A stretch of DNA of 64,000 bases from Montifringilla adamsi (lineage: Eukaryota; Chordata; Aves; Passeriformes; Passeridae). How positions within the stretch are numbered: the stretch's first letter is position 1; each line of letters opens with the position of its first letter. Shown here in pieces: positions 16,011 through 53,045 of this stretch. A model generated the notes under the pieces. That model saw nothing but the letters and a program-made list of their open reading frames with translations. It was not told where the DNA came from and did no database searches. The translations under genes were made by a program, and so were the position numbers. Location of the stretch: contig JAGGNK010007016.1 of the NCBI GenBank assembly GCA_017590115.1, positions 295,329 through 359,328 of the forward strand, in the 5' to 3' direction.

Positions 16011-16200
16011 TCACTGGAAGTTCACCAGGAGGAAAGTTTCTCCCACAGCAGCTAAGGTCAACAAAAGTCGTTCTTTGAAAGAGCTGTCAAACATTTCACT
16101 GATTTCCTCTCTCAACTCTCTCAGCAGAGGTACTGTGGACTTACCATCTGCATTCAGAATTCTCTCAAAAAGTTTACTCCAGAAATCACTGTCAGGGGTC
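16011..16200 (-). CDS. BUB1B: BUB1B last coding exon (23)
   Basis: 190 nt, acceptor TTTTAG. It encodes [20 protein letters not shown] and ends LLVNFQ then TGA at 16013-16011; human ends similarly in LLFQ. It is separated from exon 22 by a 3.5-kb intron. Confidence 0.95.
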
Positions 16201-19200
16201 CTAAAACAAACAGAGCAGTGTTCAGTGGAACAATACAAACACACACACACACACAATGTGTCTGTCAAGGTCTCAATTTATATTCAGCACTAAACATCCA
16301 CGGACAACCATACCTGAAAAAATAATTTCACTCACCTGAGCAAATATAAAGGAAAACTAGGAGTAAGTTGTTCATTTTAAATGTAGGGACCCCATTCTCC
16401 AATAGGTTTCTGGATAGTAACTACACAGGTCTAAACCAACTGTTTATACAGTTACCTCTTCTAGTATAACTGACCACTACCACCATGCACAGTAAGCCAA
16501 GGCAGTTTTAGTTTACAGGAATTATCAAGAACATTTTTGAACCGAACAACTTGGGAAACTCCTTTCATGAATAAAAGGCAGAGGTAAATCTTATTTACCC
16601 ACTTGCAAGCTAAGTCAACAGGGCAATATTAAAGGAAAGCTGCAAGGAAAAAAAAAAAAAAAAGGTGGTTTAGAGCCAGTTTTGCTTCCTTTTTGCCCCA
16701 CCTTCCATCTGCCAGAGCTCTGTACAGATTATATTTTGGAGACAATTAATAGTAATAAATCCCCTCTCTCCCAGATGTACCCACACAACACGAATAAAAA
16801 GGTTAAGTGACTCATTTAAGTCTCAGAAAACTGATATTAGAGCAAACCCTTTGTTCTTCTGTCTCACACTGCTACTGACTACTGAAGCACTTTTCTCCCT
16901 CGAGCTAGGAGTTACAGTGGCTTTGAAACAAATTATCTGCCTCTGCTTTATCTAACTAACTCACAAAACAGCAACAACCAGTCTCAAAATGAATCCAGCC
17001 TGTACTATTTCACTGCTAAATCTTATATTTGCTAAAATAATTAAGTCAATGCAGAACCTAACCAAGAAAAAAATATGCAAGACTTGAGTCCATTTTCTTT
17101 GTGGGATTAGATGAGCAAAAGGTGTGGCAGAGGAGATGAAGTGTTGCTAAGGAGGTGTAAGGAGTTCTGAGTGACAAAAATAGTCCTAAAAATTCAAACA
17201 CAGCTCCTATACCCTGCCTCACATAAACCTGCACAGATGAAGTTTCCTAAAATAGTGCAGTGAAAACAGAAAAAAATCACCATATCCATTCTTTAATAAT
17301 GGTAAAAGCTCTCCCCTGAAAAACAGGCTGTAAGCATTATACTTGGAGATGAAAACATCAACTTGATCACAATTTTCATTCTACCTTCTCCTAAACCTCT
17401 ACCACAGTGTTTGCGTGGTTTCCATTTGTTCTGTCACCTTTTAAGTGGGTTCTCTTTTATCGAAAGCCATTGACCTTGGAAGAAAAATGTTGTGCTCTAC
17501 CCTGCAATTCCCCACTGCTTCGGTAATTTGCTGAACTGGTAGTAAAATCGGTAGCTCTTACAGTCATTCTGCTATATCGACATTTGTTTAATAAAAATAA
17601 TTAAGTCCTGTTTAAAAAGCTTTCTTAAGATAAGAGGGTCATGGTGGTTGTATTTAACACCAGTCAGCCTTCTAGCAAGAAGCCTTATTTCTAGTTGTCA
17701 ATATCTGAATTCTCAGAACCCTGTTTTTAGGAAAGTTATTCTGTCAATAAAATCCTTGAAAAAAACCCCAAAAACAACCCCAAAACTCAAATGAACCTCA
17801 AAGAAATAAAAAAAAATCACTTTCCAAATCACTTGGAGAACTTTGAACACAAAGGACAGAAGGAATGTCATTTTTACAAAAGTAGAATTACTAAAAGCAG
17901 GAAGAAGAGTCCTGTGTCTTCAGAGGTGTTAACAGTGTCACCAGCATGAGTGGCTGTATGCACAACATGAAGAGCAAAATTGATCTGCATCAGCTGACTC
18001 TTCTCCCAGGGAATACTCAATTGTGGAGCCTCTTCTGGTGGAAGAAGGCTCCCTGCAGCAGTGAATTTGCTTGTCACAGATTACTTCCAAATTTCAAACA
18101 GACTAGAGCAAAGAACTACACAGACTAAAAGATCCACGTGTGAACGGAAATGGATTCAGTGCAAATTCCTTATTGCCACATAATGAATTACCTCATTTAC
18201 ACTGTAGATATAAGACTTCAGTACAACGTGTAACTAAAGCACCTATGCAGACATTTATTGGAATAATTGATATTGACAAGTAAGTATAGATGATGAATGA
18301 TAAGTCTAACACTTTCAGAAGGAAAGCAGAAGACAGGATGGAAAAGCAATTCCTTATTTGTACTCTGAACTCCCAAATAATGAACTGATGCATGCAGGTG
18401 AGCAAGAAGCCATTACAGCCTGGCTCCAGTTCTACAGAATTTGTGCCCAGACTTTATCTTCTTCCTGCTGTGTATCCTGTAGCCCTTCACAGGTCTCACT
18501 CCTCAAGACTCCTCCAATTTCTACCTCAGCCCAAAATCCTAATTTTTTCAATCCAGAATCCACAGCTTTGACTACAATTCCTTTCCAATAAACTCCTCCT
18601 CTCCAAACTTCACTGACAGACAGACAGCCCTATCCTTCCTAACTCAGACTTACTATTCCCCCTGCTCCAGTTATCCAGACAGTTACTGCTCTTTTTCCCA
18701 TACCCACATCCTGATCGGTCCCTGACACCATGTCTCAGCCTTCTCAACTCAGGCCTTATGTGGCTTCATCTGCAGTAGCGCAATTTAATCTCTTGCAGAA
18801 TTAAACAAAGGATATCATAGTAGAAAACCAGACATATACCCACTAAAGGAAGAATAAAAAAAAAAAAAAAAAAAAAAAAGGACATGTTTTCCTCTGTACC
18901 CAGCTTAAGAAGATTGGATTTTTTTCCAAAGGCTGAACACAACAAACTGGGAGATGTAAGCAGTACAGGTTGCTAGGGAACTGGACAACTCCCACGCTGG
19001 TAGTATGTTTTCTTAAAGCAATGGTCCTAGGAGCGATGCAGGATCCTGAATCAGATACCTGTCCAGCAACTGCTGGAAGAATTCTGGAAAATCCTTGTAA
19101 AATGCCAAGGCAAGAAAACCTGCAGTATGTGCCTAACAAAATAAACAACAGCAGCTTCCAAAAAGCAGCTGTTTGCACACTTGCATCTTAGATGACAGTT

Positions 19201-22200
19201 TTAAATTATTTTCTTTGCTGTACAAATGTACCATTTCTACAGCTGTTACACTCTGCCATCAGTGTCTTAGTAGAATAAAAAAAAAAAAAAGCAGAAAGCC
19301 AAACTAATCCATCTCTGAGGCAACAAGCCCATGTAATCTTTGCCCCTCTCATCCCCCACCCACTTACAAACTTCTCCAAGCTGTAAGGTGCTGACTGTGC
19401 CTCACCTGAAAGGATCAAAAAGCAAAATCATCTCATCTCGTTTATTCATATTCAACTTAAAATTGTCTCCTATGCAGCACTGAGGCCACCAGTGAAGAAG
19501 TCCAACAACTTCACAATTTCCAGCCCCACAAAACTAACACTTTTTGGCAAAAACAGCCCCAAGTTGTTGTACAATCCAAGCTCTGAAGACAGTACAGTCT
19601 AAGCTCTGAAGACAGTATCACTATGAAGAAAATGAAATTTGATGTCGCTTCTTTCCCAGCAGCCCCCCTCTGCAAAAGGACTTACTTTGAAAAGTTTTTG
19701 CTGATTTTCCAGATGGAATTCTCCTGATAGACCTGGATATGATCCCCAAACAACAGCAAATGGACTATATCTGCAATGCCAACCAAGTCTACCTGTAATC
19801 ACAACAAATACCACAAAATTCAATGTCTATCACTTTCTGCTCTAACTGCTTTCACACATTTAAGTCAGAACCATCCTTACACCAGAATCTTCCAGAGACC
19901 TGTTAAACAAGAAAATTTCTAAAGGTAAAATTCTGTTTTCATTATAGGTTTCTAAGTAAATACAGTAGTTACAATCACTGAACAGCACTGCTAATCCTTT
20001 CACTTAATGCCAAAGATTCCAGCAGATGCAAAATTCTCTGTATTCAGTGTTTATTGATCAGAGCTTTCCATGGCACTTGTAAATTTTATTTTAAGAAAAG
20101 GGGTTTTGTAAACGAAACATAAAAATTAAGATGTCCTATTAAATACAGACTCACCTGATAAGGAAGAGAACTTTCTGCCAGAAGCTGTTGTCCATGAGGA
20201 GTCTGAGCTGTGGGAAAGTTATAGGGCAAGCTGACTTGAGGCAGTAGCCTCAAATCCAGACTGTGAGAGAAATCCACCACCTTCAGAGCATTTGGCACCT
20301 CCTCATTAGAAAACGCGTCGCAGATCCTGAGCAGAGGAAGCACATGAGGCATAAGACAATGCGACAAACTTTGTCTGTCTTTTAGAATTAAATTTAACAG
20401 CACAGTGAAGGTGAGTCTTAGCCATGTCAATACTCCCCTCTGATGGCTGCTGTCAGAATTACTGCTGCTAGGGCTGCCCTGCATGGCAAGAGCTCACAGC
20501 AGGGAGCTTAGGGATGATAGTGCTGTCTCCACAGTAAGCAACAGGAAACAATAAAGGGTTGAGGATGATGCTACTTTTGTATTTGTCACAGTTATCTGAA
20601 ACAAAGTCTGTGGGCTGTGGGAATAGTGTGACGTCTTTTCACTGGTCCTGAAATGATGAGCCAGACACAGGTGATAAAAAGGGGTTACCTTTGTAAGGAT
20701 CCTTATGGTGCACAACATGCCAGATGAAAAGCGCTGAAGATGCACACATAACAAAGCAGGTACAATTTTTATATGTTTAGCAAATTAGCATAACTGACAA
20801 GAATCCTCAATTAGAGACAGGGGTGATGAGGTAATTCCCCCTGGTTCTACCCATTTCTGAACAATTGCCCTCAGACAGGAACTAAATTTTGTTTATGAAT
20901 ATGTGTCTTGAAGAGCTGGTTTTCAACCTTGGCTTTCAGAGACCCCAGGGCTTGGAGCCACTGGGGAATTTATTTTGTCTTTCTGTCTAATAGAGTAGGT
21001 AAAATGCTAGCTACAACTGCAATAATAGGCTACAGAGCTACAAATATAGATATGTAAAGAATATAAAAAATAGATAAAAGCAAAAAGGCAAGAATAAATG
21101 TGGAATCAGTGTAATGTTTTGCACTTCTCCCTCCCCATCTAAATCTCAGAATACTTGACAGAAAAAGTGATTAAACTTGATAATATTTCAACAAACTTCT
21201 CCTAGTCTACAGGTGAGGGAAGACAAAACAGAAGGGCAGGGAGGAGTACCTCTATCAACAACTGCCAAGCCAACAATATCCACATATCACAGCTCTCACT
21301 ACTGCTCTTCTTACATACTCGTATGCTCTGAGCTTATTTTGTAAGTTGTACTATGCACTTGTCCTTTTGCTATCTGAAAAAGCCTCAAACCATTATCCTA
21401 ACTTTTTGGCAGTTGTTTGTTTTGTATTTGCCACAGAGGAATTCAGCAGGAGGTATCCAAGTCCATCAAGCCACTACTAGATCAGTGACTTCCAAGAGGA
21501 CACAGCACCCTAAAGAATGTGCAAGACAACCCATTTCAGGATGTGAAGAAAATATTAGAACTTACATAGTACAGGTATGTAATTTATAAATAATTATGTA
21601 AATAAGTTATTAATAAAATAATCACAAAGACATGATAAGTAAAATATGTTGGGAGTATGTATGTTAGATGACTGTATGCTCAAAGTAAATTTAATAGCTA
21701 TTTTTAACATATCAGTGATAACTAAGAACAGCCCCAGTGAATTCATGTAATGGAATTATATCTGATTCATTAGACATTGTGGTTACTGGCTTCCCACTGA
21801 TGCCTGAAGTTTTCAGCTTTTATGTATTCTTCATGTATTAGGAGTTCTGTAGACTGTTAAATGCCTCAGTGTAACTTCCAGTACTTTTCCAGCTTTCCTT
21901 CCCACAATGAACAGACACTTATTAACACATTCCTAAAATTTTGTTATCTCTTGCCTGTTCCTTCTCCAAGGACACTTTATTTTGCACCACGTAATCACTG
22001 CCATAATAAGGGTAGGGGAGGAGGGCAGGAGCCAGGGAGGAGATTACATAATCAACTGCTCCTCTCATTGGACAACATTGGCCAGATATTCTAATTGCCC
22101 AATCTTATCAATTGCAAGGATCTAATTTGGGGCACTGTTTTTTGCCACATGTTTTTTGTACCTGAAGGCACACAGCCTTCAAGGAAAGTTTTGCTTTTAT

Positions 22201-25200
22201 ATTATCGTTCTAACATGGTCTGGAAAGGTTTGTGCTTTATTTCCAGACATCACCACACTTAGTTCACAGATCACTTTCCAAGGGATACGTGACTTTGTTA
22301 ACATAACATGGGAAATAGCTTAAAGAAGAAAATTAGGTCTGTGCATTAAGGTACCAGCTGGACTTCAGAGGAAGCTGAACACTTTGTTTAGGGTATCTGC
22401 ATATTCCAGTCCCACCTGTCTTATGTCTTCTAATCTCCTGGGTTTCAGGTATGTAAAGGCACGTTACAAACCATACTATAACTTGCTTTAGTGGTCCAGA
22501 ACCTTGGTAAAGCAGAAACTTAAAAACATGGGTAATAGCAAAACCATTTTGTTGAGCATAAGTTTTACATGTCAATGCATACTATTTCTACAGGAAGGCT
22601 TATTCCTAAATTAAGTGGTTTCACCCTTATCAGAATACACTGGAGCCTAAAAAAGCTGGACTGCAAAATCAGGCCTGTTTTGCCAGTGGGCAGGTTCAGC
22701 ACAAGAGGCACAGAAACCAACTTAAGGAATAGTGTCATTTTCTATAATGCAAGACTATAAAGAATTACACAAGGAGAAGCTCAGCAATGCACCTCATCAT
22801 TGGTACCAAGGGCTGCCTACAGCAATTAAGATACAGCACCAGTCACACTCTAAGACTCCACCACCCTCCAGAGCCGCACAGCAGCTGGGGGACCCTGTCA
22901 CAGCCAAGCGCTGGAGATCCCCTCCCAGAACTGGGAATTCCTACGGGTGCGTCCACCCGCAGGCAAAGAGACTTCCAACTGTGCTGGGACAGGGCCCAGC
23001 TTGGACAGTGGGCAATAAACAAGCTCACACCACTTCCAGTGCAGGAACATCTGGGGTCAACCTCCTCCTGGGTTCCCTCCAAAGCCTGCACAAGGCTCAA
23101 GGAGCAGCCCAGGGAGTTGCCTTTGCTCCTATACCCCCAAAACCCAGGTGTGGCCTTATCTGGTTTCTAAATACAGGAATGTGAATACATGTTTTGACAC
23201 CGAGTGGGTACATACATCATATTGCTAATTATTCTTCATTAATGAGTAGATACAAATATATAATTTGGTTGGAAGGTTCATCTAGAGGTCAGCTTTGGCT
23301 CAGGGCCTGTTGTTCAGGCATCAGTACTTCAGTACACCAGCTCAAGGGTGGACGTTACAGCAGCACAGGGGCTGTAGCTGAAATGACTGTTCTGTACCCT
23401 CCCATATTCACAGGCAGAGACAAACCTGTCTCCCAGAAACAACACCTCTGGCCTCAGATCTCCATGGACAATCTCAGCTTTGTGCAGCTTCTCTACCACA
23501 TGCAGAAGATCATGAACAACCAAGAAGATGATTTCCTTTGTGATGAACTTACGGTCATGGAGAATATCCTGAAAAGAGAATAAACATCTACCTCTGTACT
23601 CTTCTGCCTTAGATTAGGTGAAATATTTATAGCTCACTTTTTGTTTCATTATTCATCTGTACAGAGGTAACAGTCCCACCATAAACTCAGCATAATCAGA
23701 TTTTGCCCAGACAGAATTACAAGAAATGTAAGCTAGGAAACATTATTGTTCAGAACTGGACAAAAGACCAGGAGGGAGAAATTGAAGACTGAAATCACTA
23801 CTGAATTTCAGTCCTATTTGTATGCAACAATTCAAAATGCACTTACAAGACTTAAAGTGAGAATCATTCAGCAAGACGTTAATTGCTGTGACCTTGCTGT
23901 AGCTGACTGGAATGTATTGAAAGAGGTCAAATTAAACAACAGCTTTAGATGCAAATCTTGCTGTGGAATAATATGTGGTTCTTGGCTCCAGTCTTTATGA
24001 CTCACAAAGACAGAAAATGTGAAAAATTGGTTCAAGATTGTCTCTGAGAAGCACATGATTTATGAATGAGAAACCAGACCCAACTGAGGCATTAACAGAC
24101 AGCCCTGATTTGTACACAGATAAAGACCAGAGCACCTGTACTGCAGGATTAGACAGGAGAAGCTCTTCAGCAAGGAGCATAACACCACTCCAAACTCACT
24201 GCTGGCACCCAAGCAGGAGTTTGGACCTTGCAACTGTCCTTGGTTTGTCTGTACTGACCCTGAGTGTGAAGCAATTTGTATCCTTGTGCAAAATGGCACA
24301 GCCGTCCTGGTACAGGTAACAGCTGCAATTCTCACTGAAGCTCTGGTCAAAGTCAGAATTCAAACGCTTCTGTAACTCAAGGGTGATATAAAAATCCCAA
24401 GGCACAGGCTGAGAATAAACCTACAAGAAGGTACATAAGAAGAACATTTATTTTTGGAATAAAGTGTAAATTGCTCATTTTCATATTCTTCTTATCCTCT
24501 TTTTTTCCCCCCTCCCACTTGATCAAGGAAGACATTTTTCACAGTCAGAAACTTTTAATCTAGATCCTCAGGAAGAGGACTCAAAGTAGCAAACTTCTTG
24601 CATGGAAATTAATTCATTCAGAAATTAAGAGTTTATATTAATGGATGAGATTTTACCAGTTCACACTTCTTGTACAATAACCATCATGTGTGTTACCTTT
24701 ATTGCAAATCCCTTTGCATCCCACTGGAAAATGCAACCAGTTGGAATGGCAAAAAACATCTTGTATTCTTCATTGTTCCAATATTCCATTTTGATGCAGT
24801 AAGTCTCATTTCCTGTGTTGAAAGTTTATATTAATAAACTGTCATAAGTATGTAAATAGCCAGTAAATAGCTCTTCCCAAGTCATTCCCCATCTGTGCCA
24901 CATAAAACTAAGAGGGTAGATACGAACCCTAATTCAAACCCATTAGAACACAAACTCTGCACTGCAGAGGGTCTGGCACACCTACCCAGCTCAACGTCTT
25001 TCTCAACCTCCATGTGAGGCAGAGCTCCAGCCTCCAAGTGAAAACCCGGAGAAGCAGCCAATGATGACAGCACAGAACTCAGAAGCTTTTTACGCTCTTC
25101 AGGGCTCCACAGGATCTGAGCCACATCATCATCTAAGAAACAAACAACATGAAGAGATGAGCTGAAACTGTGTTAACTCTTTGCAACTTGGTTGTATCTG

Positions 25201-26819
25201 TCAGTATAAGTAAACGGGATACTGGAAACTTTCAATCCATGTTCTGATTTACTGTTCATCTCTTAGCAAGTCACCTGATCTCTTTCCAATAGTTCTGGGA
25301 AGTCAATGTGACCCTTGTCTTTAAACCTGCCTTACAGACTTTTATCATGAGGTCTCAAGGATTCTACTGTAGCATCATGCAAAATGTATCTTTCACAAGA
25401 GACAAAGCTCTGAATTATTTCAGCCACAGCAGAATTCAAACTCAGTCTGCAAATCAACATCCATTTTTTTAATCTATTCCCATAGCAAGTGATTAGTTTG
25501 GGTTTTTTTAATTATGGGGTTTAGGGAAATTTAGTCCTTTGATTACAGCAGAAGTTTTATGTAAGAAAAGGAAAACAAAGTTGGACTCCAACTCTGCTGC
25601 TCACTGCAATGTTAAGAAAATGATGTCTTTTATTTCCTGGAAGACACCTGTAGGGCTGGACTTATTTTCCTTTGTAACAGAACATAAGATCATTCAATAG
25701 ATGAGTTGATCTGTAAAAAACCAAGACAGCCTCAATGTTTACTCTGCTTGATCATTGAGACAAAACACAAGAACTGATGTAGTAGATGGCCTCTACTGCC
25801 TTCTCCCAAATGCCATGGCTGTAATGAGGGAGAACATTTTAAACTTCCACAGCATACAGGTAGGAAGCAGATTATCTACTGTTATGCCCACCCTTATTTG
25901 AAAAGCATTGCAGTAAGTACTGCTCAGGAAGCAATGCTGTGAAAGATCCAGGAAATAATGTAGGCTGGAGGCTACAATGTGTTCCAAGCTTTTGCCATCA
26001 CAAACCTAGGAAATTTACTGGCATATTTTGCAGGAATAAATGGACAGCTACCTGAAGTAATTTTTGTCCTTTACACAGTATTAAGAATTACTATATCCAG
26101 GGTGAGAGCTGCAGTTCACGGGAGATGTAAAGAAATCAAGAAACAAAGCAACTGGAAAGATCCAAAGTTTAAGAAAGGACCATTAAAACATCTGAACAAA
26201 TGCTTTCTTTTTTTCTAAAAAGATTTTTCATCTTGCTCTAAAGTTTAGTACATATGATAAAAACAACACAAAGATCCACCCAAAATATCCCAGCTATTTC
26301 TGTGACATGATTTCTAATTGTATTTTCACTCCAAGTGCCAAGCATGCTTCATCATAAAATAGTCTGTAGGCACATGAGAACATAACTCTCCAGAGTAGAT
26401 ACACTGAAATTTCAAATACACAATTCTAATAAAGAACCATAAAACAAAACCAAAGTAGCTAAAAAAGGTTAAACACCTTGAACACTATCATCCAACACAC
26501 ATCTAATTCCACAAGCCAGATTTTGAAGGCTTTTTGTGACCATTTCTGTTCTAACTGTAATCTAAATATTTAGAACAGAAAGAAACAAATGCCTTTAACT
26601 AGGAGAAAGATAAGCAAAGATATTGACTATTTAAATATCAGTACTGCTTTCCATCAATAGGAATAAGAATGATACTGTGAAGAAGCACAACAGTTTACAG
26701 CATACTTAAAATGCAGATTTAAACCAAAATTATGCAACTTGCACTAGAGTCCAAATTCATATCCATTCTTTTCAAAGTAGTAGCTTATCAGCACATCAAG
26801 AGACACACAGTATGATGAC

Positions 26820-26879
<60 letters not shown>

Positions 26880-29099
26880 AGACAAACCAAAATAAAGCTA
26901 CAAATTAAGAGTTTATATTAATGGATGAGATTTTACCAGTTCACACTTCTTGTACAATAACCATCATGTGTGTTACCTTTATTGCAAATCCCTTTGCATC
27001 CCACTGGAAAATGCAACCAGTTGGAATGGCAAAAAACATCTTGTATTCTTCATTGTTCCAATATTCCATTTTGATGCAGTAAGTCTCATTTCCTGTGTTG
27101 AAAGTTTATATTAATAAACTGTCATAAGTATGTAAATAGCCAGTAAATAGCTCTTCCCAAGTCATTCCCCATCTGTGCCACATAAAACTAAGAGGGTAGA
27201 TACGAACCCTAATTCAAACCCATTAGAACACAAACTCTGCACTGCAGAGGGTCTGGCACACCTACCCAGCTCAACGTCTTTCTCAACCTCCATGTGAGGC
27301 AGAGCTCCAGCCTCCAAGTGAAAACCCGGAGAAGCAGCCAATGATGACAGCACAGAACTCAGAAGCTTTTTACGCTCTTCAGGGCTCCACAGGATCTGAG
27401 CCACATCATCATCTAAGAAACAAACAACATGAAGAGATGAGCTGAAACTGTGTTAACTCTTTGCAACTTGGTTGTATCTGTCAGTATAAGTAAACGGGAT
27501 ACTGGAAACTTTCAATCCATGTTCTGATTTACTGTTCATCTCTTAGCAAGTCACCTGATCTCTTTCCAATAGTTCTGGGAAGTCAATGTGACCCTTGTCT
27601 TTAAACCTGCCTTACAGACTTTTATCATGAGGTCTCAAGGATTCTACTGTAGCATCATGCAAAATGTATCTTTCACAAGAGACAAAGCTCTGAATTATTT
27701 CAGCCACAGCAGAATTCAAACTCAGTCTGCAAATCAACATCCATTTTTTTAATCTATTCCCATAGCAAGTGATTAGTTTGGGTTTTTTTAATTATGGGGT
27801 TTAGGGAAATTTAGTCCTTTGATTACAGCAGAAGTTTTATGTAAGAAAAGGAAAACAAAGTTGGACTCCAACTCTGCTGCTCACTGCAATGTTAAGAAAA
27901 TGATGTCTTTTATTTCCTGGAAGACACCTGTAGGGCTGGACTTATTTTCCTTTGTAACAGAACATAAGATCATTCAATAGATGAGTTGATCTGTAAAAAA
28001 CCAAGACAGCCTCAATGTTTACTCTGCTTGATCATTGAGACAAAACACAAGAACTGATGTAGTAGATGGCCTCTACTGCCTTCTCCCAAATGCCATGGCT
28101 GTAATGAGGGAGAACATTTTAAACTTCCACAGCATACAGGTAGGAAGCAGATTATCTACTGTTATGCCCACCCTTATTTGAAAAGCATTGCAGTAAGTAC
28201 TGCTCAGGAAGCAATGCTGTGAAAGATCCAGGAAATAATGTAGGCTGGAGGCTACAATGTGTTCCAAGCTTTTGCCATCACAAACCTAGGAAATTTACTG
28301 GCATATTTTGCAGGAATAAATGGACAGCTACCTGAAGTAATTTTTGTCCTTTACACAGTATTAAGAATTACTATATCCAGGGTGAGAGCTGCAGTTCACG
28401 GGAGATGTAAAGAAATCAAGAAACAAAGCAACTGGAAAGATCCAAAGTTTAAGAAAGGACCATTAAAACATCTGAACAAATGCTTTCTTTTTTTCTAAAA
28501 AGATTTTTCATCTTGCTCTAAAGTTTAGTACATATGATAAAAACAACACAAAGATCCACCCAAAATATCCCAGCTATTTCTGTGACATGATTTCTAATTG
28601 TATTTTCACTCCAAGTGCCAAGCATGCTTCATCATAAAATAGTCTGTAGGCACATGAGAACATAACTCTCCAGAGTAGATACACTGAAATTTCAAATACA
28701 CAATTCTAATAAAGAACCATAAAACAAAACCAAAGTAGCTAAAAAAGGTTAAACACCTTGAACACTATCATCCAACACACATCTAATTCCACAAGCCAGA
28801 TTTTGAAGGCTTTTTGTGACCATTTCTGTTCTAACTGTAATCTAAATATTTAGAACAGAAAGAAACAAATGCCTTTAACTAGGAGAAAGATAAGCAAAGA
28901 TATTGACTATTTAAATATCAGTACTGCTTTCCATCAATAGGAATAAGAATGATACTGTGAAGAAGCACAACAGTTTACAGCATACTTAAAATGCAGATTT
29001 AAACCAAAATTATGCAACTTGCACTAGAGTCCAAATTCATATCCATTCTTTTCAAAGTAGTAGCTTATCAGCACATCAAGAGACACACAGTATGATGAC

Positions 29100-29159
<60 letters not shown>

Positions 29160-32100
29160 AGACAAACCAAAACAAAGCTACCTTAGCAGTTATTACTGCC
29201 AACCAGTCCAAATTTTTAATTTTGGAATTTGACCTCATTACTCCTACACACTGCCTGCTTTACTACCCTAAGTAACTTATCTGTCACCTTAATACTGACA
29301 TGTTTTGGATGCTGACAAGCATCCTGTACTGCACCTCACTGCTGCTTCAGACAAGGAAGATAAGCTGAGCCACCAGTCATAGTAACACACAAAACAGAGT
29401 GGGATACAGGAAGGACAGAAAAATCCCCACATTTAGTGACAGGTGCAAGTTATTTGTTGCGAGTGAAATTCAGTTTAATACTAACCAGTAACCAATTCAG
29501 CAGGCAAGCTCTGAGCCAGCTCCAGTTTCTCACTGATCTGCAGGTATTTCATAGTAGATGTTTGTGTAACAGAGGACAGAGAACCTCCTGAGACAGAAGC
29601 ACCTGATGAGTGAGCATCTTCCAGGCTGGTTTCCATGATTGGGCTGTAAATAAAGCCATCAAGTACTCAGACTAACCAAAGATACCAGTTGTAGATAACA
29701 TCAACCGGGATAGGAGAGGATACAGTGCACGCCCAGATTTAACTAACATGAAGAAATACTTTCCCATCCCTAGCAGAAAGCCAGAAGCAATGTCAGAGCT
29801 TCATTTCACTTTTGATAATTGATTATACTCAGAATCTTAGTCTAGAGATGATTTTAGTAATCTCTTTCACCAAATTTAACTGCTACAACAGAAGACATCC
29901 TGAATATTTATCACAATCTTTGCTACAAAATTTCAGTGCTTTCAAAGCAGTGAAGGGTTGGGTGGGAAATATTTCTTCCTAATTATAATGAGCAAGGAAC
30001 ATCCCGAGAAAAAACACATTCAGCATGGTATACATGTTTACATCCTAACAACCAGCAAAACAACTCAACCACAAACTAAACTACAAACATTAAAAACATT
30101 TTATATAGTCAAAATAAGTACATGAGCCAATTGTATAAAAGGAACTGATGACACTGCTCTTCATGTTTGATAATGACAGAAAGCATTTATTATTTATTAA
30201 TTTCTCTGCAAGTTATTGGGTTAAAAAACCTTGTAAATTAGTCCCACAGCAGTAATCCAAAAAGGCAAGTGGGCTTGCTATTACCTCTCCAATCTGCTCA
30301 AGGCAAAGTGGACCCTGAGCTAAAGAAATGGCTCTCTCCACAATATTCTGGTCTTTTCAGAAAACTCCTTCCTCAGCAACACTAAAACCACAACATGAAA
30401 GACATGCAGGAGAAGAGGCTTAAGGTCCTTGACTGCTAATTACCTCAGTTTTTTTACACTGAGAGCTTCAGTGTAGGCCTCTTCACCCACCGGTGTCTCC
30501 TGATTCAGAGGCGCACTCTTGGATTCTGGACTATCTTCCTTCAGTTCACCCTGAGAGAAAGCAGGAGCTGGGACTCTCTGAGCTCCCACCCCGTGAAAGG
30601 GCGTTGAGGCCAGGTGGGCAGCCCTGTTAAAGTCACACGTGTCCTCTGGGTTGGCACAAAGGGTCTTGTTCTTGTAGGAGCCGCTCACAATTGCATCCTC
30701 ACTCAAACGTTCAATTCCATTCAGCTCATCCTGGAAAAAAACAGAAAAGACAGTGAAAGCCTGCAGATCTTATGACCATTCTTTCTTTCTTTCTTTCAAA
30801 GCTGAACATTTCTCATCCCTTTCTACCACTCCATCACCTTCCAGCATGAATAGGACACTCAGCCTCCATGAATTCTACTTATCACAGAATCCAAGAGGGC
30901 TCCGGGTCAGAAGGGACCTCAAAGACCACCGACTTCCACCCCCTCGCCATGGGCAGGGACACCTTCCACAAGTGCAGCTTGCTCCAAGCCCCATCCAGCC
31001 TGGCCTGGAACACTTCCTGGGACAGGGCAGCCACAGCCACAATGTCATATTTCCAGTATAATCTCATCATCACCCCGTTCAATTACTGCCATGCCAGGCA
31101 GCAGTTTGCAATCCTTGTTTTTCTCCCGTGATGCCAGTCCAGCCAAGCTGCCTCAGTCTGACAGCAGCACAGGCTGCCTTGGTGTCTCCTGGGCAGGAAA
31201 TCTGCCATGGCTGAAGGGTTTCCTTACACAGGCTCCTGCTGCTGCTGCCGTGCTTTCCTTGGCACTCAGAGAATCCACAGGATTACGAACAGCAAGAGGC
31301 TGACGGGCACTTTTCTGGCTACGATCTGCTGAACAACTAAGAGCAAGTTACAGTCAGTTACATATTCATTAGAGCAGCTTCCCACCTCCAACAAATTCCT
31401 CTCAAGAGTTTAAGTCTATTATCATTCCAATCATCCAATTTCTACCGTAGAACCAGCAGTAAGCAATAGATACTACAGCTCTCCAGAATGAAGCAAGTTT
31501 ATAGAGCAGCTTAAATAGTTCTAGGTCGAAGATAAAGAACAGAAGAGTATTTCTTTATCAAGGACTCTGAGTAATTAAATAAAAAAAAATACCAATATAA
31601 ACAAAACAAAACACACATCCCCACACACTCCTACAAGAAACAGTTATTTCAGCTGCTATAGCAAGGGTTTTGATGTTTCTGTTTTCCTTCCCTCTGAAAT
31701 CTAGGTCTTCAATAATTCTACCTTATATTCTGATTTGTCAAAGTAGTGGATTCATCAAATATAGAGAAAAATGGAACAGCAGCCGGTGGGGGAAGCAGAC
31801 CTACATCTGTAAAGAAAAACCAAGAGGCTCTATCATATCCACAGTTCTTCTAAAATAGCATATCCAACACTAGTTAAAATAGTTAATATGCAGTTCTAGA
31901 AGTACTGCTCCTAACAGCAAGTTACAGAGCTGGCATATAAAGAAACCCATTTAAAAAGGTTTGGTTTTGCCATGTTAATTAACCACCCCTTTACCACCAT
32001 TTTATGTGTTTAAGACTATGCTTCAGAATTTGTACATTTTTCTGCAAGACTGTCTCATTTCTCTGTTTCTCCTTAGAGTTTAAAAATGTATTTCCACTGC

Positions 32101-35100
32101 GGCTGTCTGGGGATACATCAGGAGTCTGGATAACCACTGTCAACAGCAACAAAAGTCAACTCCAATCAGAAGTAAAATTCTTCAGGATTTGACCTTCCCA
32201 ACAAAACTTACCAAAATCAACAATAGGCAATTTTGGGATGTATTCCCCTAGCAAAACCTCTGAGGAAAAAGGACTTAAGGTAATTATTAATCTCATTATA
32301 GCATTAAACTCTTCTGAAATGTTAGTAAGACTGCAAACATGAAAGATGGAAGAAAACTTTCCAGCTACTGAAAGAAAAATGCCCTTCTTCTTGAAAGTCC
32401 TTTCAAATAGTGACAGTTCTTAGATGCTCCATGTTTTGCTCAATAAGGTAAAAGGCATTACTAACAAACACACTGTCATTCTTCTAATCCACCTAAGCTT
32501 TGGGTTTTACTTTGCTGCCTTCTTGGTATTCATGGAACACTTCCCTTTAAACCAGACCTTCTTGTTAATGGTAAAAAACTTGAGTACGCACCCTCAGAAC
32601 AAGATGGTTTATGTAGTTGAGTATCTTCATAGACCTGGAATTCACTGTGAAAAATATAAAATAAACAAGTTTGTATTCTACAGACCTTCACAAAAAGTAA
32701 GTAAACTCTGTAAAAAAGTTAAGCCAAGATGACAAATGCTTCTTGCAAAAAGTTAAGATCCCTCAGACAAATAAACAAAGAAAGAGCACAGATCCTGGTT
32801 ACAGGCTGATGCCAAGGCTATATTCCATTCTACCTGAGAAAACAGGCTGCTAGTGATCCATGTTACTAGTCATACTTACATAGCCTCACAAGTGTTCTCT
32901 CTGCTGGCTAAAACACCCCTCCTTTACCTTTGTGACTGAGGCTGTTTCTCCCCATATTCTTTTGTGCTGGAAAAAGTAAATCCTTGCAATCCCAAAGGTG
33001 TGGAAGCTCCCATTACCTCTGTTGCCTGTGGTAACAAAGCCACATTTCAGTTCTACAGTGGTAGAATCATAAGCCAGGCAAAAAGGTTCCAAAAACATGA
33101 TGATAATTTCGCATAGCCATTAAAAACCTGATAGAAAATGGTTGCCTTTAGCTACTTTTATTTGTACTTAGCTTACCTGCATGAAGAAAGTAAAGTCCAC
33201 TTTTATTGCATAGTGAAGTTAAAAGGCATCATTTACTCTTTGCAACCATATTTATACTTTCATAGGAGATTTTAGTTACCCTGCAACTCTTAAGGACATA
33301 TGTAAGCAGTTAGGTAGCTTACAAAATCACAACTCTGTTTAATTATTTAAAGTACTTACTGTGAAGGCATTGTTTTGGAAACAGAGAAGGAAGACAGAGA
33401 GAGAGAGAGAGAGAGAGAAAGAGAAAGAGAAAGAGAGAGAATATACCTCACTAGTGAAGAATCCTTTCAAAAGAACTTCAAAATGTGTTACAAGAATATC
33501 AGAAACACTTCCTTTTGGCTTTCTTGGGTACTTTTATTTAAAATTGCAGCTATTTGCAGTTAAATGAGGACAATACCTGTTCATGTGGTTGTTGCTGCTT
33601 GTTATCTTCTTTTTTCTTTAATTTCTGTTCCAGCTCCTCAATTTTCCTTTGTATTTCTTCCTTCTTCCGTTCTATGGCTTGTATTTCATCTAAGGAAAGA
33701 ACACCTCTAAGGCCCAATGCGTATTTCACATACAATTGGTGGCTAAATTCTCAAGGGGCCAAAACTTCTGGTGGTCTTTCCCTGTCCCACAGCTTCCACA
33801 TAAAGCTGTTGAATGTGTTACTGTCTCTGTACCTCACAGCAGTTAAACAACTACTCCAGTAGAAAAAGAGAAGCAGCTGCAATAACAGACAGAAGCAAAT
33901 AAAATTTTATGATTCCATCTGGAATGCCTTACTTGCTCCAGCCCACTTTGGAACATACCCTCGTCTTTCTTTCTCGCTTTCTTCCTGTAGATTTCAGCTC
34001 GGATCTCTTCAAAAGAGAATTCATCCACTCCAGCATAAACTTTCTCTTTGCAGTACATCACCATCTCTGTCTTTGCCTGAGCATCCTGCTGCTGATGCTG
34101 CACTCGCTGCAGTGGGTCCTCCCGCTCCTCAGGTTTGCGAGTACTTAACACACAGTTTATGCTGGGCTCAATTTTGCAGGGGGTCCTGAAAAAGCAGGAA
34201 TTTACTATGTGGGCTTTGTGAACTTCACTGTAGCACAGAAAAACAGGCACAGGAGAAAGCAGGGCTAATTTCAGAACCTAGTTTTGGAGTATTGTAAAGA
34301 CATTCTGTTCTGTGCTTAGAAAAAATACATGAGAAAATTGGAATAAGTAACACCAAACTACTCAGAATTGTGTGATAACTAAAACAAAACAAACAACAAC
34401 AAACAACAGAAGACAAATCCAACTTAAAGTATTTATAAGGTACAGTCAAAAACAAATAAAATTCTTATGATGTCTGAACTGTCATGCATCCTGATACAGG
34501 ATCTGTTCCATTTAATTCCATTCACAGCTGTGTGACCACAGGCATGACAAGTCCCTAAACTCTGGTTTGTAGAATGATTATCTGGGAGAAAAGGAACACA
34601 CAAGAAAAGGGACATAAAATGGACATTCTTGGACCAGATGAAACCGACATGCTAATTTCAGGAGAGAAGAAGCAATGCTGGTACAGCTTTACAAACACCA
34701 GCAATCCAGATGACTTCAGCTGGATAAACTCAAATCTGGGATTGATCATGAGGCAAACAGCTGCTCCAAATGTTTGGGGTTTTAAAGCTTTATTGGAGGA
34801 ATGTGGGGATCAAAACGAAGACCCCAACAGGATCCTTCTGCCAAGAACACTGGATGAGAGCTCACGGCATGATTTGCAGCACATTTAAACAGATTCAGCA
34901 TAACACTTCCACATCTGGCAGGTAACGATGATATCATGAGAAAATGGATTCAAAATCCAAAAAGTACTTTTAAGATTTCATCTACATAATCTAAAACTAC
35001 ATACCAAGTCTCTGCCTAGGTCACTTAGCCTGGTGCTCAGTTCTACCCACTCCGTCCCTCTCCCTGCTATGAAAAGCCGCTGCCTTGGCAAATGACAAAT

Positions 35101-38100
35101 CTTCATCCCAGTGAAATGGGCATGCCAAGAGATTTACCCTCTGATGTGGCATCACTGACCTTCAGGAGAAAGAAGCAGTCTTACATTTTAAACAGGAATG
35201 CAGACTTCACATATTTGTCAACTACACCATGGCACAGCCACGGGCAGAGCCGCTCTGCAGTCCACATGCAATCCCTGCTGCCCACCACCTCTCAGCATTC
35301 CTTGGGTCCGTGCAATTCAGACCCCTGGGAACTGTCTGTAATGCCCAACAGCCTTTTCCACTCCTCTCTCACAAGGAGCCTGTCTATTCCCTGGCCATCA
35401 TTAGCCACAGAAAGGTAGAGCAACCTTGCAAAAGAATGTCTTTTCCTCTGCTCTAACTAAACCACCCCATCTCCTGGGGTTTATCAGCTTTTCAGGGAGC
35501 GCTGTACAAGCAGCACACTCACTCCTCCACGACCTAAGCAACACTGTTGGCATGGCAACTCTGATAGCTTATTTCAGAATAAAACTCCAGATATGCTGAG
35601 CACAGAGTTCCCAAGACAGAAAAAAAAAAAAACCAGACACAAATCTGCCTCCATTCGGGGCTCTTTCACAGCAAACAGCACCCTAAGACACAGAGCTTGT
35701 GCTTTTGTGTAAACACACTGAGCTAAGCTATTAAACTCATTAGCATATATGAATATGATATAGGCCCCCACATCGGGAGCAGCACTGAACACTTCCCATG
35801 TCCTTATGCAACCTCTGCTGAACCCTCTGTCATCCAGCTGCAGCACTAATTGCTTCCAGGATGACAGATTTTTAAATTCTTCTAGCTCGAGAGGCTTAAG
35901 TACTTGGCAAAACAAGTCCCAGTTTTAGGAAGCAGCTTTGAGAATTCCAAATGCAATCCCCCCATCTCAAACTCAAGACTCACATCATTTGGGGCTGAGC
36001 TGACTCGTCCACATAGGGGGTGAAACTGGGCAGTGGGTGGGGCACCTCCAAGCCAGAGCTCACAGCGCTGCGAGGACGCTGCGGAAGGAAAGGCAACGTT
36101 AACAACACAGGGATTCATTTCAGTCTCCACATCCCTCTGCAGTCTGCATCTCCCTGTTCCTCATCTTCTGCTTATTTGGACCTTTTCTTACATAGAAAAT
36201 TAAACTTGATGGAGACTTTGCAAGATTAATTCCTTTCTGACACAGTCAGTGCCCACCAGCTGAACACTGGCACCTAAAAGGCTCCTCCTGCATGTTCTCA
36301 CCAGTTCCTCTTATTCTGAGGGAATGTTTTGTACATATTGAGGGATATATATACAAATTATCCTGGTCAGCCTGGGTATTCCTTATTTTGCACAGATGCC
36401 ACTGTTCTCCTTTTGCAGCCAAGATTGTCCCAGTTCTATGATAATATAAATTCCCTGTCCACCAACAACCTCCAGACTTGGAGTTTGGGTTTTTTTCAAT
36501 TTTTCCATTAAGAGACCAGTGCAACACCACAAAAATCCCTTAACAGTTTCTGAGGTCCATTAGTAAAGAGAAGAGGTGGAATTTAGTCAGGCAACACACT
36601 ACTCTCATCTGCCTATTTCAATTGCCTGAGACTCTTCAGCACAAAAAAAGTTACACGGTAGGAATACTTCACAAACTCACTCCTGTTTTCCATCATTTCC
36701 CAAAGTGCTTCCTGAGGCATCTTGATACCAGCAGTAAGAGAAACCCCTTCTTCCCTCTGCAGGTTTTAATGTGTCAGAGCATTCACCAAAGGTTATTCTT
36801 GCACTGCCCTTCAATGGAGTGGAATTAAACATCCTTGCCTCTTCTCCAGAAACAGGATATTTTAAATTAAATCTAAGAAATTTCATTAAGAGGGGAGCAG
36901 AGACTACTCTAAGGGCAGACATTAAAAGAAATATGGAAGTATTCGGAGATCAGAATGAATGTTTTAAACAGCAAAAAGAGACTGGCAAAATTAATTGTAT
37001 ATTAATAATTTTTCCTCACTCTTCTCAGCTATAATAAATCTATGATTTAGTTAACTTTTCCATTCATTTAAAAAAACTGCTTTCTATCGAAGCCAAAGGA
37101 GGGTGGCTTTGGATGAGATATTGGGAAGAAATTCTTCCCTGGGAGGATGCTGAGGCCGTGGCACAGGTTGCCTACAGAAGCTGTTGCTGATCCATCCTTG
37201 GGAGTGCCCAAGGCCAGGCTGCATGGGGCTTGTAACAACCTGGGCTAGTGGAAGGTGAACCCAGATGATCTATAAGGTTCCCCCCAGCCCAAACAATTTC
37301 ACAATTCTATTATGAAATCTGTATTTACAATAGACACAAACCACAGGCAAGGGAGAAAGAGACAATCTCTGTTTCAGCAATCAGAAGTCATCAACTTAGA
37401 CACACCTTCTTTTCTTTTCCCCATCCATTTTGAGCCTCCTTACCCTGCCAGAGTTCCACGGTCCTGCGCGGAGTTCATTCTCCTTGGCCCTAGGAACTGG
37501 AGGTGCTGGCCATGACTGTGCTGTAAGTGTGGGAATCTCAGGTCCAGACACAGAATTTTCATCAAATACGGCAAAACTTGGAGCGTTTGGAAGCTGTAGA
37601 GAAGCCTGCGGCTGGAAGCTTCTGTTTGGGTTCATGACTATTAGCAAGAACATTTATATGAATTAACCTTCAACCGTCACATTCAATTGCAAATCTCACT
37701 ATAAAGAGGTTAAACTCCTTCAGTAAGTTTTTTAAGCTCTTTAATGTACCTTTAACTGCATCTCCCACACGACTAATGGGGGCTCTCACTTTCTTCTTCC
37801 CTCTGCCTTTGAGATCTGCCAGCGAACTTCTCTGAGGCTCCGCAATTCCCAGCAATCCCATATTGTCTCCATCAGGACTTTCCTCAAGTGCCAGTAGTGT
37901 CTGCCGAGAAACACGGGCCTGAAACTGCCTAAAAAAAAAAAGATGGGAGAAGTCAACATAACCTTTCCTATCCCAGGAACCCAGGTGAGCACCTAAGTTC
38001 TTCCCTTACTTGTGATGAGCCTGGAGTTTGTCCAAAGGCTCAGCCTTGCGCTGGAGTCCTTCCTGGAATATCAGATCTGCTTTCCTGAAGCTGCCCCTGG

Positions 38101-39871: not shown

Positions 39872-39911
39872 GACCACCTCTCCTCCACTCCGGAACACTT
39901 CTCCTTTAATC
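39729..39911 (-). CDS. BUB1B: BUB1B coding exon 1 (KEN box; contains start)
   Basis: Acceptor TGCAG before 39911, donor GTAAGT after 39729, ending in phase 2. The first in-frame ATG is 39871-39869 with a purine at -3. The product begins [20 protein letters not shown], which contains the N-terminal KEN box needed for CDC20/APC/C inhibition. The frame is also open upstream of this ATG to the acceptor, so translation could start in an unplaced upstream exon; bases 39911-39872 are then coding rather than 5' UTR. Confidence 0.9.
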
Positions 39912-40199
39912 CTGCATTTTAAAAGGAATGGACACCTGTACGGCTGGGTACTGACCTGAAACCTGACAGAGACAGTTTCCTAAGCCCATTCACCCAGAAT
40001 TTTCTATGCAGCCAAAACACACCACTTAGATACCCAACTTTTAGGGGGCTTTTAAACATATGAAAAAAAGCGCCCATCTTGACAGTGAAGAACCGCAAGC
40101 AGGCAATATTAGCAACAAAAACCACTAAGATTAAGCCATCTCCCTCCCCGGTGATTGCTTCTTTCCCTGCTCCAAGACGCCCCCACGCTCCTCACAGGG

Positions 40200-40838
40200 C
40201 CTGCAGATCTTATGACCATTCTTTCTTTCTTTCTTTAAAAGCTGAACATTTCTCATTCCTTTCTACCACTCCATCACCTTCCAACACGAATAGGACACTC
40301 AGCTTCCATGAATTCTACTTATCACAGAATCCAAGAGGGCTCCGGGTCAGAAGGGACCTCAAAGACCACCGACTTCCACCCCCTCGCCATGGGCAGGGAC
40401 ACCTTCCACAAGTGCAGCTTGCTCCAAGCCCCATCCAGCCTGGCCTGGAGCACTTCCTGGGACAGGGCAGCCACAGCCACAATGTCATATTTCCAGTATA
40501 ATCTCATCATCACCCCGTTCAATTACTGCCATGCCAGGCAGCAGTTTGCAATCCTTGTTTTTCTCCCGTGATGCCAGTCCAGCCAAGCTGCCTCAGTCTG
40601 ACAGCAGCACAGGCTGCCTTGGTGTCTCCTGGGCAGGAAATCTGCCATGGCTGAAGGGTTTCCTTACACAGGCTCCTGCTGCTGCTGCCGTGCTTTCCTT
40701 GGCACTCAGAGAATCCACAGGATTACGAACAGCAAGAGGCTGACGGGCACTTTTCTGGCTACGATCTGCTGAACAACTAAGAGCAAGTTACAGTCAGTTA
40801 CATATTCATTAGAGCAGCTTCCCACCTCCAACAAATTC
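40200..40838 (-). pseudogene. BUB1B partial copy: CR1 and exon 14 (near-identical)
   Basis: Matches 30762-31400 at a constant offset of about 9440 bp with only a handful of differences. It carries a complete exon 14 copy (40668-40776) with intact splice sites. The left junction at about 40199 is where homology between 39.8-40.2 kb and 55.25-55.62 kb stops. No exon 15 copy accompanies it. Confidence 0.88.
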
Positions 40839-42789: not shown

Positions 42790-43680
42790 CAAAGCCCTTT
42801 GCAGACAGGATAACAAACACAGCACAATGAGCAAAATAATTATGGTAATACAATAAATGATAAACCCACTTTGAATGAGGCTCTTTACCCAGCCTGATAA
42901 ACCTAACTCTTCCAGCCAGTGATCTATCCCAGAAAATCCTCCACATAACACATGCCATCAAACTCTCCACAACTATATCCATAAGCTAACACAAGAAAAT
43001 CAACAGCATGCTGCATGATATCTACATCTATAACCAAAGCACTCAAAATTAAGGAAGTTTCATTTACTCTTTTTGCTACAAAGCAAGGCAATCTATTTAA
43101 TCCAGAAACTATTGGGGGTAACATTTTGCTTTCCTGTTCCACTTCTGTCCCACATATCATGTTCCAGTGTGTAATTAAAAAATACACATCCTTCTGCTGG
43201 TAATGTCCCTAAAATGTCTAACTCTTGGGGTTCAAGTGAAGCAACAGGTAAATTGTCATACCAAATATCCCATAGCTCCCTGCAGGGGGTTTTAGTATTA
43301 CAATTGTTCTGGGAAGAGCATTGCATTTTGACAACATTTTGTGTTACTCGTATACTTTGTGTGCCGTTCAAGGGTGCCCCCACTAAGCAGGTGTGAAAAG
43401 GTTGTTCTGGTTGTGCCATATAGACGCACAAAATCACATCTGATTCAATGCATAGAGCAACTGATACCCAAACATTGTGACTGCTCCACAGTGTCAGCTG
43501 AGGGGCCCTCAGGGAGGTTGCTGGTTGTGACCCAGAGCAGAGCCTAGAGCAGGGCACACACACTGGGCAGGTACCCATCGAACTCCTGCATCTGTAGAAA
43601 CACAAGCATACTGGCACCCCCAAGTGACATGGTCCCAAGGACCTTCTCCCTTGTTGGTAATGAGGTTCCATACCCATACC
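42790..43680 (-). pseudogene. ERV env remnant (frameshifted)
   Basis: An envelope surface-like frame (about 43677-43093) is followed by a transmembrane-subunit-like segment with a C-x6-C pair (CGEFDGMC), then in another frame a hydrophobic membrane anchor. The residue after the pair is Tyr where CX6CC envelopes have a third Cys. At least one frameshift near 42.94 kb and in-frame stops separate the pieces, so no intact envelope is encoded. Confidence 0.75.
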
Positions 43681-43739
43681 TTAGGCTTGGACAACTGGAT
43701 ATCACTAGAGGGCTGCAATGACAAAAAATTATTTCAAAT

Positions 43740-44012
43740 AAGAGGGTTTTGGGAGTTTGGTAATATCATAAGGCATATATCAGTGTATACAGAGCTTTGG
43801 TCAGCCTACTCTGTGGGGTTTCACCAGACATTGTCCCTTGTTGTTTTTCAAGAATGCACTTCCAAGTGCCATGGGCAAGATCACCAATGGCTTGGCCTGC
43901 AGGGGAATGAGGAATGCCAGTGAGATGCAACACGCCCCATAATTGCAAGAACTGATGAGTTATCTGTGTGATATAGGCAGGGCCATTATCGGTTTTAATG
44001 GTGTGGCCAGCG
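43740..44012 (-). pseudogene. ERV integrase fragment
   Basis: The minus-strand frame shows TDNGPAY, holding the second catalytic Asp of the DD35E core, and downstream TGIPHSPAGQA. The position expected to hold the catalytic Glu reads differently (QAIGDLAH). The N-terminal half is replaced by a GC-rich segment at about 44013-44098, so this integrase cannot be complete. Confidence 0.75.
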
Positions 44013-44099
44013 CTGCAGCAGAGCAGGGCCCGGCCCAGCCCTGCCAGGTCATGTGGGCCTCGTGGTGAAGCACAGCCTGGCCCGGCCAGTGTCCAGTTA

Positions 44100-44930
44100 C
44101 CTGTTCAAAAGCTGGAAGCAAGAGAGCTTTTCCCGGGTTTTGTTCATTTTTAAATGTGATTACACAGGGGTGTGTTCAGCTTCCTTAAGTGGTTTAACAA
44201 GGTGTCAATATTCAAAATTAACCAGATGATTGGTTCTGATGGGCCCAGAGGAAGGTGTTAGCAGTCCTCACAGAGAATCACTTCCATAACTGATGGATTT
44301 TCTCTTTACCAAAAACCAAGCTATGTTAAACAACAACATTCTCCACTCCTCATCTCTGTGAATACACATTAAAAAATTATCAAAATTATATTCAACATGC
44401 AAATTCTATTTAGAACAATAAAAATTACTAAACTAACCAGAAGGAAAAAATTTCTTACTCTAACCTCCAACCCCTAGACATTTCACTATAATTACAATAT
44501 AAATTTTCCACTATCATTCTATTTAAACTTGTGACTTAATACTTGCTTTGCCCTTTATTTCTCCTAACTAATCATTATCTCACAGCTTTCACCAATTGCT
44601 TGCATTCTCCACCAAAGGTTGCAGTGGTTTCAGTAACTGGGCAGAAACACCAATTAAGTGCAATGGTTTTGGTTTGCCAATCCAAGTGTTCCAGCCAGCA
44701 CACCAATTAATGTAGTGGGTCTAGTGCTGGCCAAATGCCAATGCACCCACTAGAATTATTTACTCACTTTCTGTTATGAGATAAGGATTAGGAGGAGGGC
44801 AAAACAGGTTTTAACTAAAAAACAAGCTATGTTAAACCACAACACTTGGGGAAGTTAACTCAGGATCACTTTCAAGAATATTAAAAAAGGGTGATAAATG
44901 CGGGGTAGTTAACCCTAAATAGGGTCATGT
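44100..44930. other. AT-rich interval inside ERV pol, origin unclear
   Basis: Between the reverse-transcriptase thumb and the integrase fragment I see no RNase H or integrase N-terminal coding. The sequence is AT-rich and is bracketed by two similar strings (aagctatgttaaa near 44319-44333 and 44823-44838), suggesting a nested insertion or local duplication. Confidence 0.5.
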
Positions 44931-45492
44931 CCAGTTAATGGTACCTAAAAGTTTTTGTGCATCATTTAATGCTTGGATCTTGGTTGAAAATTGAATTGCT
45001 TATGGCTGTATTGTCTGGTCTAACATTTTAAATCCTAGGTATTTCCATGGGGGTTGCTGTTGCACCTCTTCAGGTGCAATTTGCACCCTGAACTCTTGCA
45101 GTGCTTGCATCAATTTTGGCTGAATCTGTAAAAGGCCTTCTTTGCTGCATGATTGACAGAGAACACTAAAAACAAATTTGGGATATCATCAGGAGGTAAA
45201 GGAACGGTAAAGAAAAGTTTTTTAAATCAACAATCAAAATGTCCCAGGTAGCAGGTATCACAGCAGGGGATGGCATTCCAGGCTATAAAGCACCTGTACT
45301 TTCCAGAACTGTATTAATTTTTCTTAAATCATGGAATAACTTCCATTTACCTGATTTCTTTTTAATCACAAACATAGAAGTGTTCCATGGATTTGTTGAT
45401 GGCTCAATATGTCCTTGATTTAATTGCTCTTTAACCAACAATTCAAGAGTGTTCAGTTTTTCTTTTTCAAGGGGCCACCTATCAACCCACAC
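44931..45492 (-). pseudogene. ERV reverse-transcriptase remnant (active-site block missing)
   Basis: The frame from 45492 shows the RT finger region ([20 protein letters not shown]). It later reads PLPPDDIPN and then passes directly to the thumb-like PPWKYLGFKM near 45.04 kb. The intervening palm block with the YxDD catalytic motif is absent, and in-frame stops occur, so RT is inactive. Confidence 0.8.
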
Positions 45493-45871: not shown

Positions 45872-45939
45872 GTTTGGTCTTTGATCAGATACAATCTGAG
45901 TCCAGTATACTTCAGGTTCCCCTGTCGAGCCAAAGCCTC

Positions 45940-46200: not shown

Positions 46201-46213
46201 ATGAGTCTCTAAG

Positions 46214-48415: not shown

Positions 48416-48479
48416 CGTCCCCAGTGGCTCACCTTCTTAATTTTAAGAGCTTTGCAGCTCCCCACACTTCACAGTATGC

Positions 48480-53039: not shown

Positions 53040-53045
53040 GAGGTC

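Follow-up and report, generated by a model that had tools for sequence, protein, structure and literature searches.

False duplication reaches 4–16 % in the older zebra finch, hummingbird and platypus assemblies and 0.3–2.3 % in newer ones, false exon gains included, and its homotype share in the older assemblies amounts to 0.4 % in zebra finch, 2.5 % in hummingbird and 2.7 % in platypus, according to the part of Ko et al. 2022 (PMC9516828) available to us. A similar constellation is found in BUB1B, the gene encoding BUBR1, of the snowfinch Montifringilla adamsi, of which we analysed a 64,000-nt stretch (contig JAGGNK010007016.1, positions 295,329 to 359,328; hereafter the window). Here, two adjacent 2,280-bp units each carry exons 17 and 18 of the gene and differ at one position only, which is located at the unit end, i.e. 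the pattern of a homotype false duplication, with adjacent near-identical copies lacking allelic differences. Judging from the assembled sequence, the duplication is probably such an artefact, with the second copy being absent from the bird. The likelihoods that we attach to this and to the other readings are judgements and were not computed.

The duplicated unit and its predicted effect on BUB1B

When the window was compared with itself at an offset of 2,280, the segments 24622-26901 and 26902-29181 were found to be adjacent, head to tail and 99.96 % identical (2,279/2,280), which bears out the near-perfect tandem duplication with one difference previously read from the letters alone. The single mismatch of that sequence-only reading also stands, while its site (26892/29172) has to be moved by one base to T26893/C29173. 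The unit is the longest repeat of the window and the one with the highest identity among repeats >100 bp (BLAST of the window against itself), and its edges are sharp, i.e. no further base matches at either end beyond the 2,280 bp. A chance repeat is ruled out by this identity. No repair signature, i.e. neither microhomology (0 bp) nor flanking repeats, was found at the join between the copies; real intragenic tandem duplications usually show such a signature but do not need it. Between 23000 and 31000, no repeat family was detected besides the unit and its AAGA array (minimum length 20, seed 12), and at these thresholds non-allelic homologous recombination via flanking repeats was rejected for lack of such repeats. 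An Rfam search gave no match at gathering thresholds.

The position of the sole difference is informative. T26893 is the ninth base from the join and lies 13 bp past the (AAGA)n array, and a uniformly placed difference has a 0.8 % chance of falling so near a unit end (both ends counted). Base errors tend to cluster at contig tips. The blunt join leaves end joining possible but lowers the weight of a real intragenic tandem duplication. For comparison, random cut points in the neighbourhood gave 0 bp microhomology in 55 % of 20,000 trials, and blunt breakpoints of copy number variants (CNVs) account for 35 % in Drosophila and 11–19 % in human sets in the available part of PMC4056370, where the sets are largely deletions and small events and microhomology means at least 2 bp, so that blunt can include 1 bp. 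Taken together, the equal arrays, the blunt join and the difference near the join point to either an arbitrary join by software or an extremely young duplication.

The age was assessed with assumed rates of 1e-4 to 1e-3 for changes of the array and of 2e-9 to 5e-9 for base substitutions. Taken as an ordinary substitution, the sole difference would put the age of the copies at around 44,000–110,000 generations. Over such a period, many changes of the array are expected at a rate of 1e-4 or more per generation; at an array rate of 1e-5 the age argument is weak, with a probability of no change of 0.11–0.42. At the rates assumed, an old duplication kept by selection was rejected, since the array is unchanged over the age implied by one substitution.

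The gene had been named BUB1B in the sequence-only reading, and the matches to human BUBR1 and to avian BUB1B proteins agree. The exon-17/18 region matches human BUBR1 chain 6tlj_S (E 6e-52), and residues 6-1051 of the 1,059-aa protein align with the same chain in a single stretch (1034.6 bits). The protein combines an N-terminal Mad3/BUB1 region 1 (PF08311, residues 46-167, E 1.9e-40) with a C-terminal BUB-type pseudokinase and is collinear with human BUBR1, as expected for an orthologue, while the PF00069 kinase match reaches only 22.6 bits, below the cut-off of 31.7, as is expected for a pseudokinase. The protein search found avian BUB1B proteins (457 matches, of which the best 120 were listed), and the exons of six of these were placed on the window; the gene model has 22 coding exons. 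In this model, exons 17 and 18, whose names are kept from the sequence-only reading, are coding exons 16 and 17. Among the matches listed, the closest was Pyrgilauda ruficollis P0111, which differs at 6 of 589 aligned residues, compared with 26 of 867 for Passer domesticus P0011 and 42 of 897 for Passer montanus P0014. By themselves, these counts indicate a sparrow-family songbird, probably a snowfinch.

The exon pair measures 263 nt, which is not a multiple of 3, and the frame is therefore broken when both pairs are included. Among thirteen distinct splice forms tested, complete frames were obtained for the three single-pair combinations (1,059 aa), for 17-17-18 (1,108 aa) and for 18 without 17 (1,010 aa), and the remaining eight terminate early. 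In the 17-18-17-18 form, the second exon 17 is read in a shifted frame and contributes exactly 17 sense codons before a stop, which falls after residue 819 and 793 nt ahead of the last exon junction and destroys the C-terminal domain. With a stop codon at this place, nonsense-mediated decay of the transcript is expected. The lengths and phases of both exons, the TGA in the second exon 17 and the in-frame 17-17-18 form had all been predicted correctly beforehand; one pair does give a clean frame, as proposed, but of 1,059 aa rather than 1052. The second-copy exons and their splice sites are identical to the first, since they are located in the identical part of the unit, and the hybrid intron (1,844 nt) that links the first exon 18 with the second exon 17 combines the ordinary donor of 18 with the ordinary acceptor of 17, without obvious obstacle to splicing. 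If the duplication were real, full inclusion would therefore be the default splicing and a decayed transcript the default product. A crude exon-chaining output with exon 17 twice in frame and 18 omitted was rejected as support for a 17-17 splice, the same script having missed 13 of the 22 coding exons.

Exons 17 and 18 are present in 122 of 126 relatives, i.e. the best matches listed in the protein searches (at most the best 120 per search; an earlier tally gave 121/125), and each exon occurs once in all 122, while P0100, P0104, P0107 and P0114 lack both. This distribution shows that the exon duplication is not a shared avian feature. A search for the doubled exon or the frame-shifted tail, in which 7,995 candidates sharing most words were scored, listed 82 proteins, none of which covers more than 68 % of the doubled region.

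Artefact or young duplication

For the favoured homotype artefact, two overlapping pieces of one haplotype would have been laid end to end instead of being merged, creating a false exon gain. The first piece would have stopped 21 bp past the 61-bp (AAGA)n microsatellite and carried a single base error close to that end, and the following piece would have started 2,280 bp earlier. The true gene would then hold a single exon pair encoding a normal 1,059-aa BUBR1 and, we infer, no chromosome would carry the 26901/26902 join. We favour this explanation because the only difference is so close to the join, microhomology is absent and the 15-unit arrays are equal, as well as because all 122 exon-bearing relatives are single-copy, the pair in series destroys the C-terminal domain and false duplications with false exon gains are documented in older assemblies (PMC9516828).

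Several observations, however, weigh against an assembly error. There is no N at the join nor anywhere in the 64-kb window, which speaks for real sequence or gap filling, several 0.5–1.6-kb segments at 94–99 % identity are resolved without gaps, and the window looks like a long-read or carefully closed assembly. In the available text of PMC9516828, the homotype share is at most 0.1 % in long-read Vertebrate Genomes Project assemblies, and false duplicates are mostly separated by a gap or sometimes by unsupported sequence, while the join here is gapless. The single-copy relatives are weak evidence about the bird sequenced, because exons that break the frame are often passed over by gene callers and clusters at 90 % identity hide members. 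Error-prone repair may also leave a mutated base near a breakpoint. Finally, the locus is rich in local copies, a context raising the odds of a real event, and at 49307/49308 two copies of a 944-bp unit (98.5 % identity) meet in another blunt tandem join.

These points partly favour a genuine tandem duplication of very recent origin, segregating in the species and probably present on one chromosome of the sequenced bird, which we regard as unlikely, though a serious contender. Besides the gapless join, it is supported by the other near-identical local copies (matches of 30363-31917, 30466-31306 and 30759-31398), and the identical array and the 0–1 differences agree with an origin too recent to be registered by either clock. 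The duplication might tentatively be attributed to blunt end joining or to replication stalled at the purine-rich (AAGA)n array, and non-B motifs are enriched at CNV breakpoints in the accessible part of PMC4056370. As a rule, its four exons would be spliced in series and the transcript degraded, giving a loss-of-function allele tolerated in heterozygotes. Against this, microhomology is absent at the join, no independent sequence carries the duplication, and the frame is broken in a checkpoint gene in which disease-associated mutations (mosaic variegated aneuploidy) often cluster in the kinase domain, as stated in the available portion of PMC8066494. In favour of such an allele, PMC9516828 describes a true allele-specific tandem duplication that lies within one contig and has haploid-level depth. 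Half-normal read depth alone would therefore not prove an artefact; in the sequence-only reading it had been named together with an absence of reads across the join.

By contrast, a false heterotype duplication, i.e. two alleles of a heterozygous bird set side by side, is very improbable. A 15-unit array is often different between alleles, and the two arrays are equal here. Heterotype, not homotype, is the main false-duplication kind overall in the consulted text of PMC9516828, a point that speaks for this explanation and against the homotype artefact, but at the heterozygosity given there for zebra finch (0.95 %) and hummingbird (0.34 %), species other than that of the window, around 22 or 8 differences would be expected in 2,280 bp and one is seen. 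We give similarly little credence to a real, fixed duplication made harmless by splicing, in which either one pair is always skipped or skipping of the first-copy exon 18 yields a 17-17-18 protein lengthened by 49 residues ahead of the pseudokinase. While the frame stays open in the 17-17-18 form and in the three single-pair combinations tried, and a 15-unit TTTC tract, resembling PTB-type UCUU sites, begins 97 nt past the first exon 18 and could repress that exon, the identical splice sites and the ordinary hybrid intron argue for full inclusion by default. Moreover, fixation needs time, yet the array, expected to mutate fast, is unchanged, and the 17-17-18 form is in none of the proteins listed. 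It is most doubtful of all that the duplication is real and expressed in such a way that (TTTC)15, moved by the join to its place downstream of the first exon 18, represses this exon and yields a 1,108-aa BUBR1 carrying a doubled 49-residue segment ahead of its pseudokinase.

The sequence-only reading had left a choice between an assembly duplicate and a very young duplication with obligatory skipping. Of these, we lean towards the artefact. The case of a duplication on one chromosome only had been omitted, and obligatory skipping finds no support in the sequence: no difference exists between the two pairs or between their splice sites, the hybrid intron is ordinary and none of the 122 relatives has two copies. 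In summary, the duplication would be ordinary as biology and is most likely absent from the bird, or else a very young allele.

Other local copies around BUB1B

The features of the locus are collected in Table 1. Comparison of 48445-55628 with 30363-40207 places parts of BUB1B upstream of the gene, including copies of exon 13 and exon 14, and these segments are largely in gene order and strand. We interpret them as an older, incomplete tandem duplicate of the 5' half of BUB1B. In the self-BLAST of the window, 30363-31917 and 49308-50853 are 93.8 % identical, i.e. 100 % over around the first 700 bp, 96–100 % over the next 400 and 81–90 % thereafter, while 30466-31306 matches 48467-49307 with 98.7 % and 30759-31398 matches 40199-40838 with 99.1 % identity. 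At the join 49307/49308, sequence like 30466-31306 is directly followed by sequence like 30363 onward, which reflects either a genuine duplication at the locus or the mixing of paralogues during assembly; the abrupt edges of the upstream copies could also stem from such mixing.

Table 1. Positions in the window of the duplicated BUB1B unit, the gene and its upstream copies
Feature	Position	Strand	Remarks
Unit copy	24622..26901	.	Adjoins the novel join; downstream copy in BUB1B sense; 2279/2280 identical to 26902-29181
Unit copy	26902..29181	.	Upstream in BUB1B sense; right-hand context native
Sole inter-copy difference	26893 T vs 29173 C	+	Ninth base before the 26901/26902 join
Inter-copy join	26901..26902	.	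Microhomology 0 bp; no inserted bases
Perfect (AAGA)15.25 array	26820..26880	+	61 bp, ends 21 bp short of the join; TTTC on the BUB1B sense strand
Perfect (AAGA)15.25 array, other copy	29100..29160	+	Same length as the array at 26820-26880
BUB1B exon 17, first copy	27412-27266	-	147 nt, phase 1-1, AG/GT splice sites; matched human BUBR1 6tlj_S
BUB1B exon 18, first copy	27092-26977	-	116 nt, phase 1-0, AG/GT splice sites
BUB1B exon 17, second copy	25132-24986	-	Reaches TGA after 17 codons if read on from exon 18
BUB1B exon 18, second copy	24812-24697	-	Identical to first copy
BUB1B coding span	16011..39871	-	22 coding exons; single-pair protein of 1,059 aa; all internal boundaries AG/GT
Partial upstream copy of BUB1B 5' half	48445-55628	-	Compared with 30363-40207
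Part of exon 1, copy	55209-55628	mostly gene's strand	Exon placement and self-BLAST
Exon 6 end and intron 6, copy	54858-55204, 53040-53558	mostly gene's strand	Exon placement and self-BLAST
Exon 12, copy	50747-50667	mostly gene's strand	Exon placement and self-BLAST
Complete exon-14 copy	49675-49389	-	0 differences in 287 nt from BUB1B exon 14; splice sites intact

Exon 14 occurs twice in two of 125 proteins, i.e. Corvus hawaiiensis P0001 and Agelaius tricolor P0002, once ahead of exon 1 and once in its own place, and within each species the two copies are identical in protein. This pattern fits gene conversion, possibly recurrent, between an old copy and BUB1B, and suggests that the region recombines locally. 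The exon-14 copy of the window is in frame with an upstream exon-1 extension (RIKGEVFRSGGEVVMSQED..., exon start 39911), and both together correspond to the leader form predicted in Corvus and Agelaius, which would add an N-terminal extra exon 14 to BUBR1. Just upstream of exon 1, 40199-40838 holds an exon-13 copy with 0/109 differences and intact splice sites.

An endogenous retrovirus (around 43093-48436, minus strand) separates BUB1B exon 1 from the upstream exon-14 copies. Its gag frame is open over 740 aa and encodes p24 and zinc knuckles, and an aspartyl protease frame is present as well; a further open frame (43096-43680) gave no Pfam match. A long imperfect TCTT array of 34.5 units at 63330-63472 has the motif of the array beside the BUB1B join. 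In Chloebia gouldiae, the predicted protein P0121 continues from the BUB1B C terminus into a protein kinase that has a PF00786 domain, and gene prediction has probably run two neighbouring genes together here; on the window, P0121 matched only BUB1B exons and, weakly, 7679-7392. We take its kinase and PF00786 layout to be a PAK-like arrangement.

Comparison with known systems

If the duplication is an artefact, the locus would be a clean case of an assembly error making a spindle-checkpoint gene look broken in one bird, which could be miscounted as a lineage-specific loss. If it is real, a natural loss-of-function or domain-lengthening BUB1B allele would lie beside a microsatellite and be useful for asking how much intact BUBR1 a bird requires, and if the 17-17-18 form were true, the microsatellite would have both created the duplication and rescued the reading frame in a spindle-checkpoint gene. 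No literature on snowfinch assemblies was identified by title or abstract start.

In mutually exclusive tandem exons, both members together break the frame, a likeness shared by the 263-nt pair. However, a two-exon unit is involved here and a regulated choice is without evidence; where conserved, diverged copies would be expected, the exons are identical, and none of the 122 exon-bearing relatives has two copies. Intragenic tandem exon duplication alleles of PAFAH1B1 and PALB2 resemble the locus in having a duplicated segment within one gene; in the parts of the sources available, they are reported from patients, while ours is seen in an assembly only. With the false exon gains of Ko et al. 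2022 (PMC9516828, as far as its text was available), the locus differs in having no N gap between the copies and in being known from assembled sequence alone, and shares near-identical adjacent copies on one scaffold with exons added within one gene, in a set of species that includes a songbird and a hummingbird.

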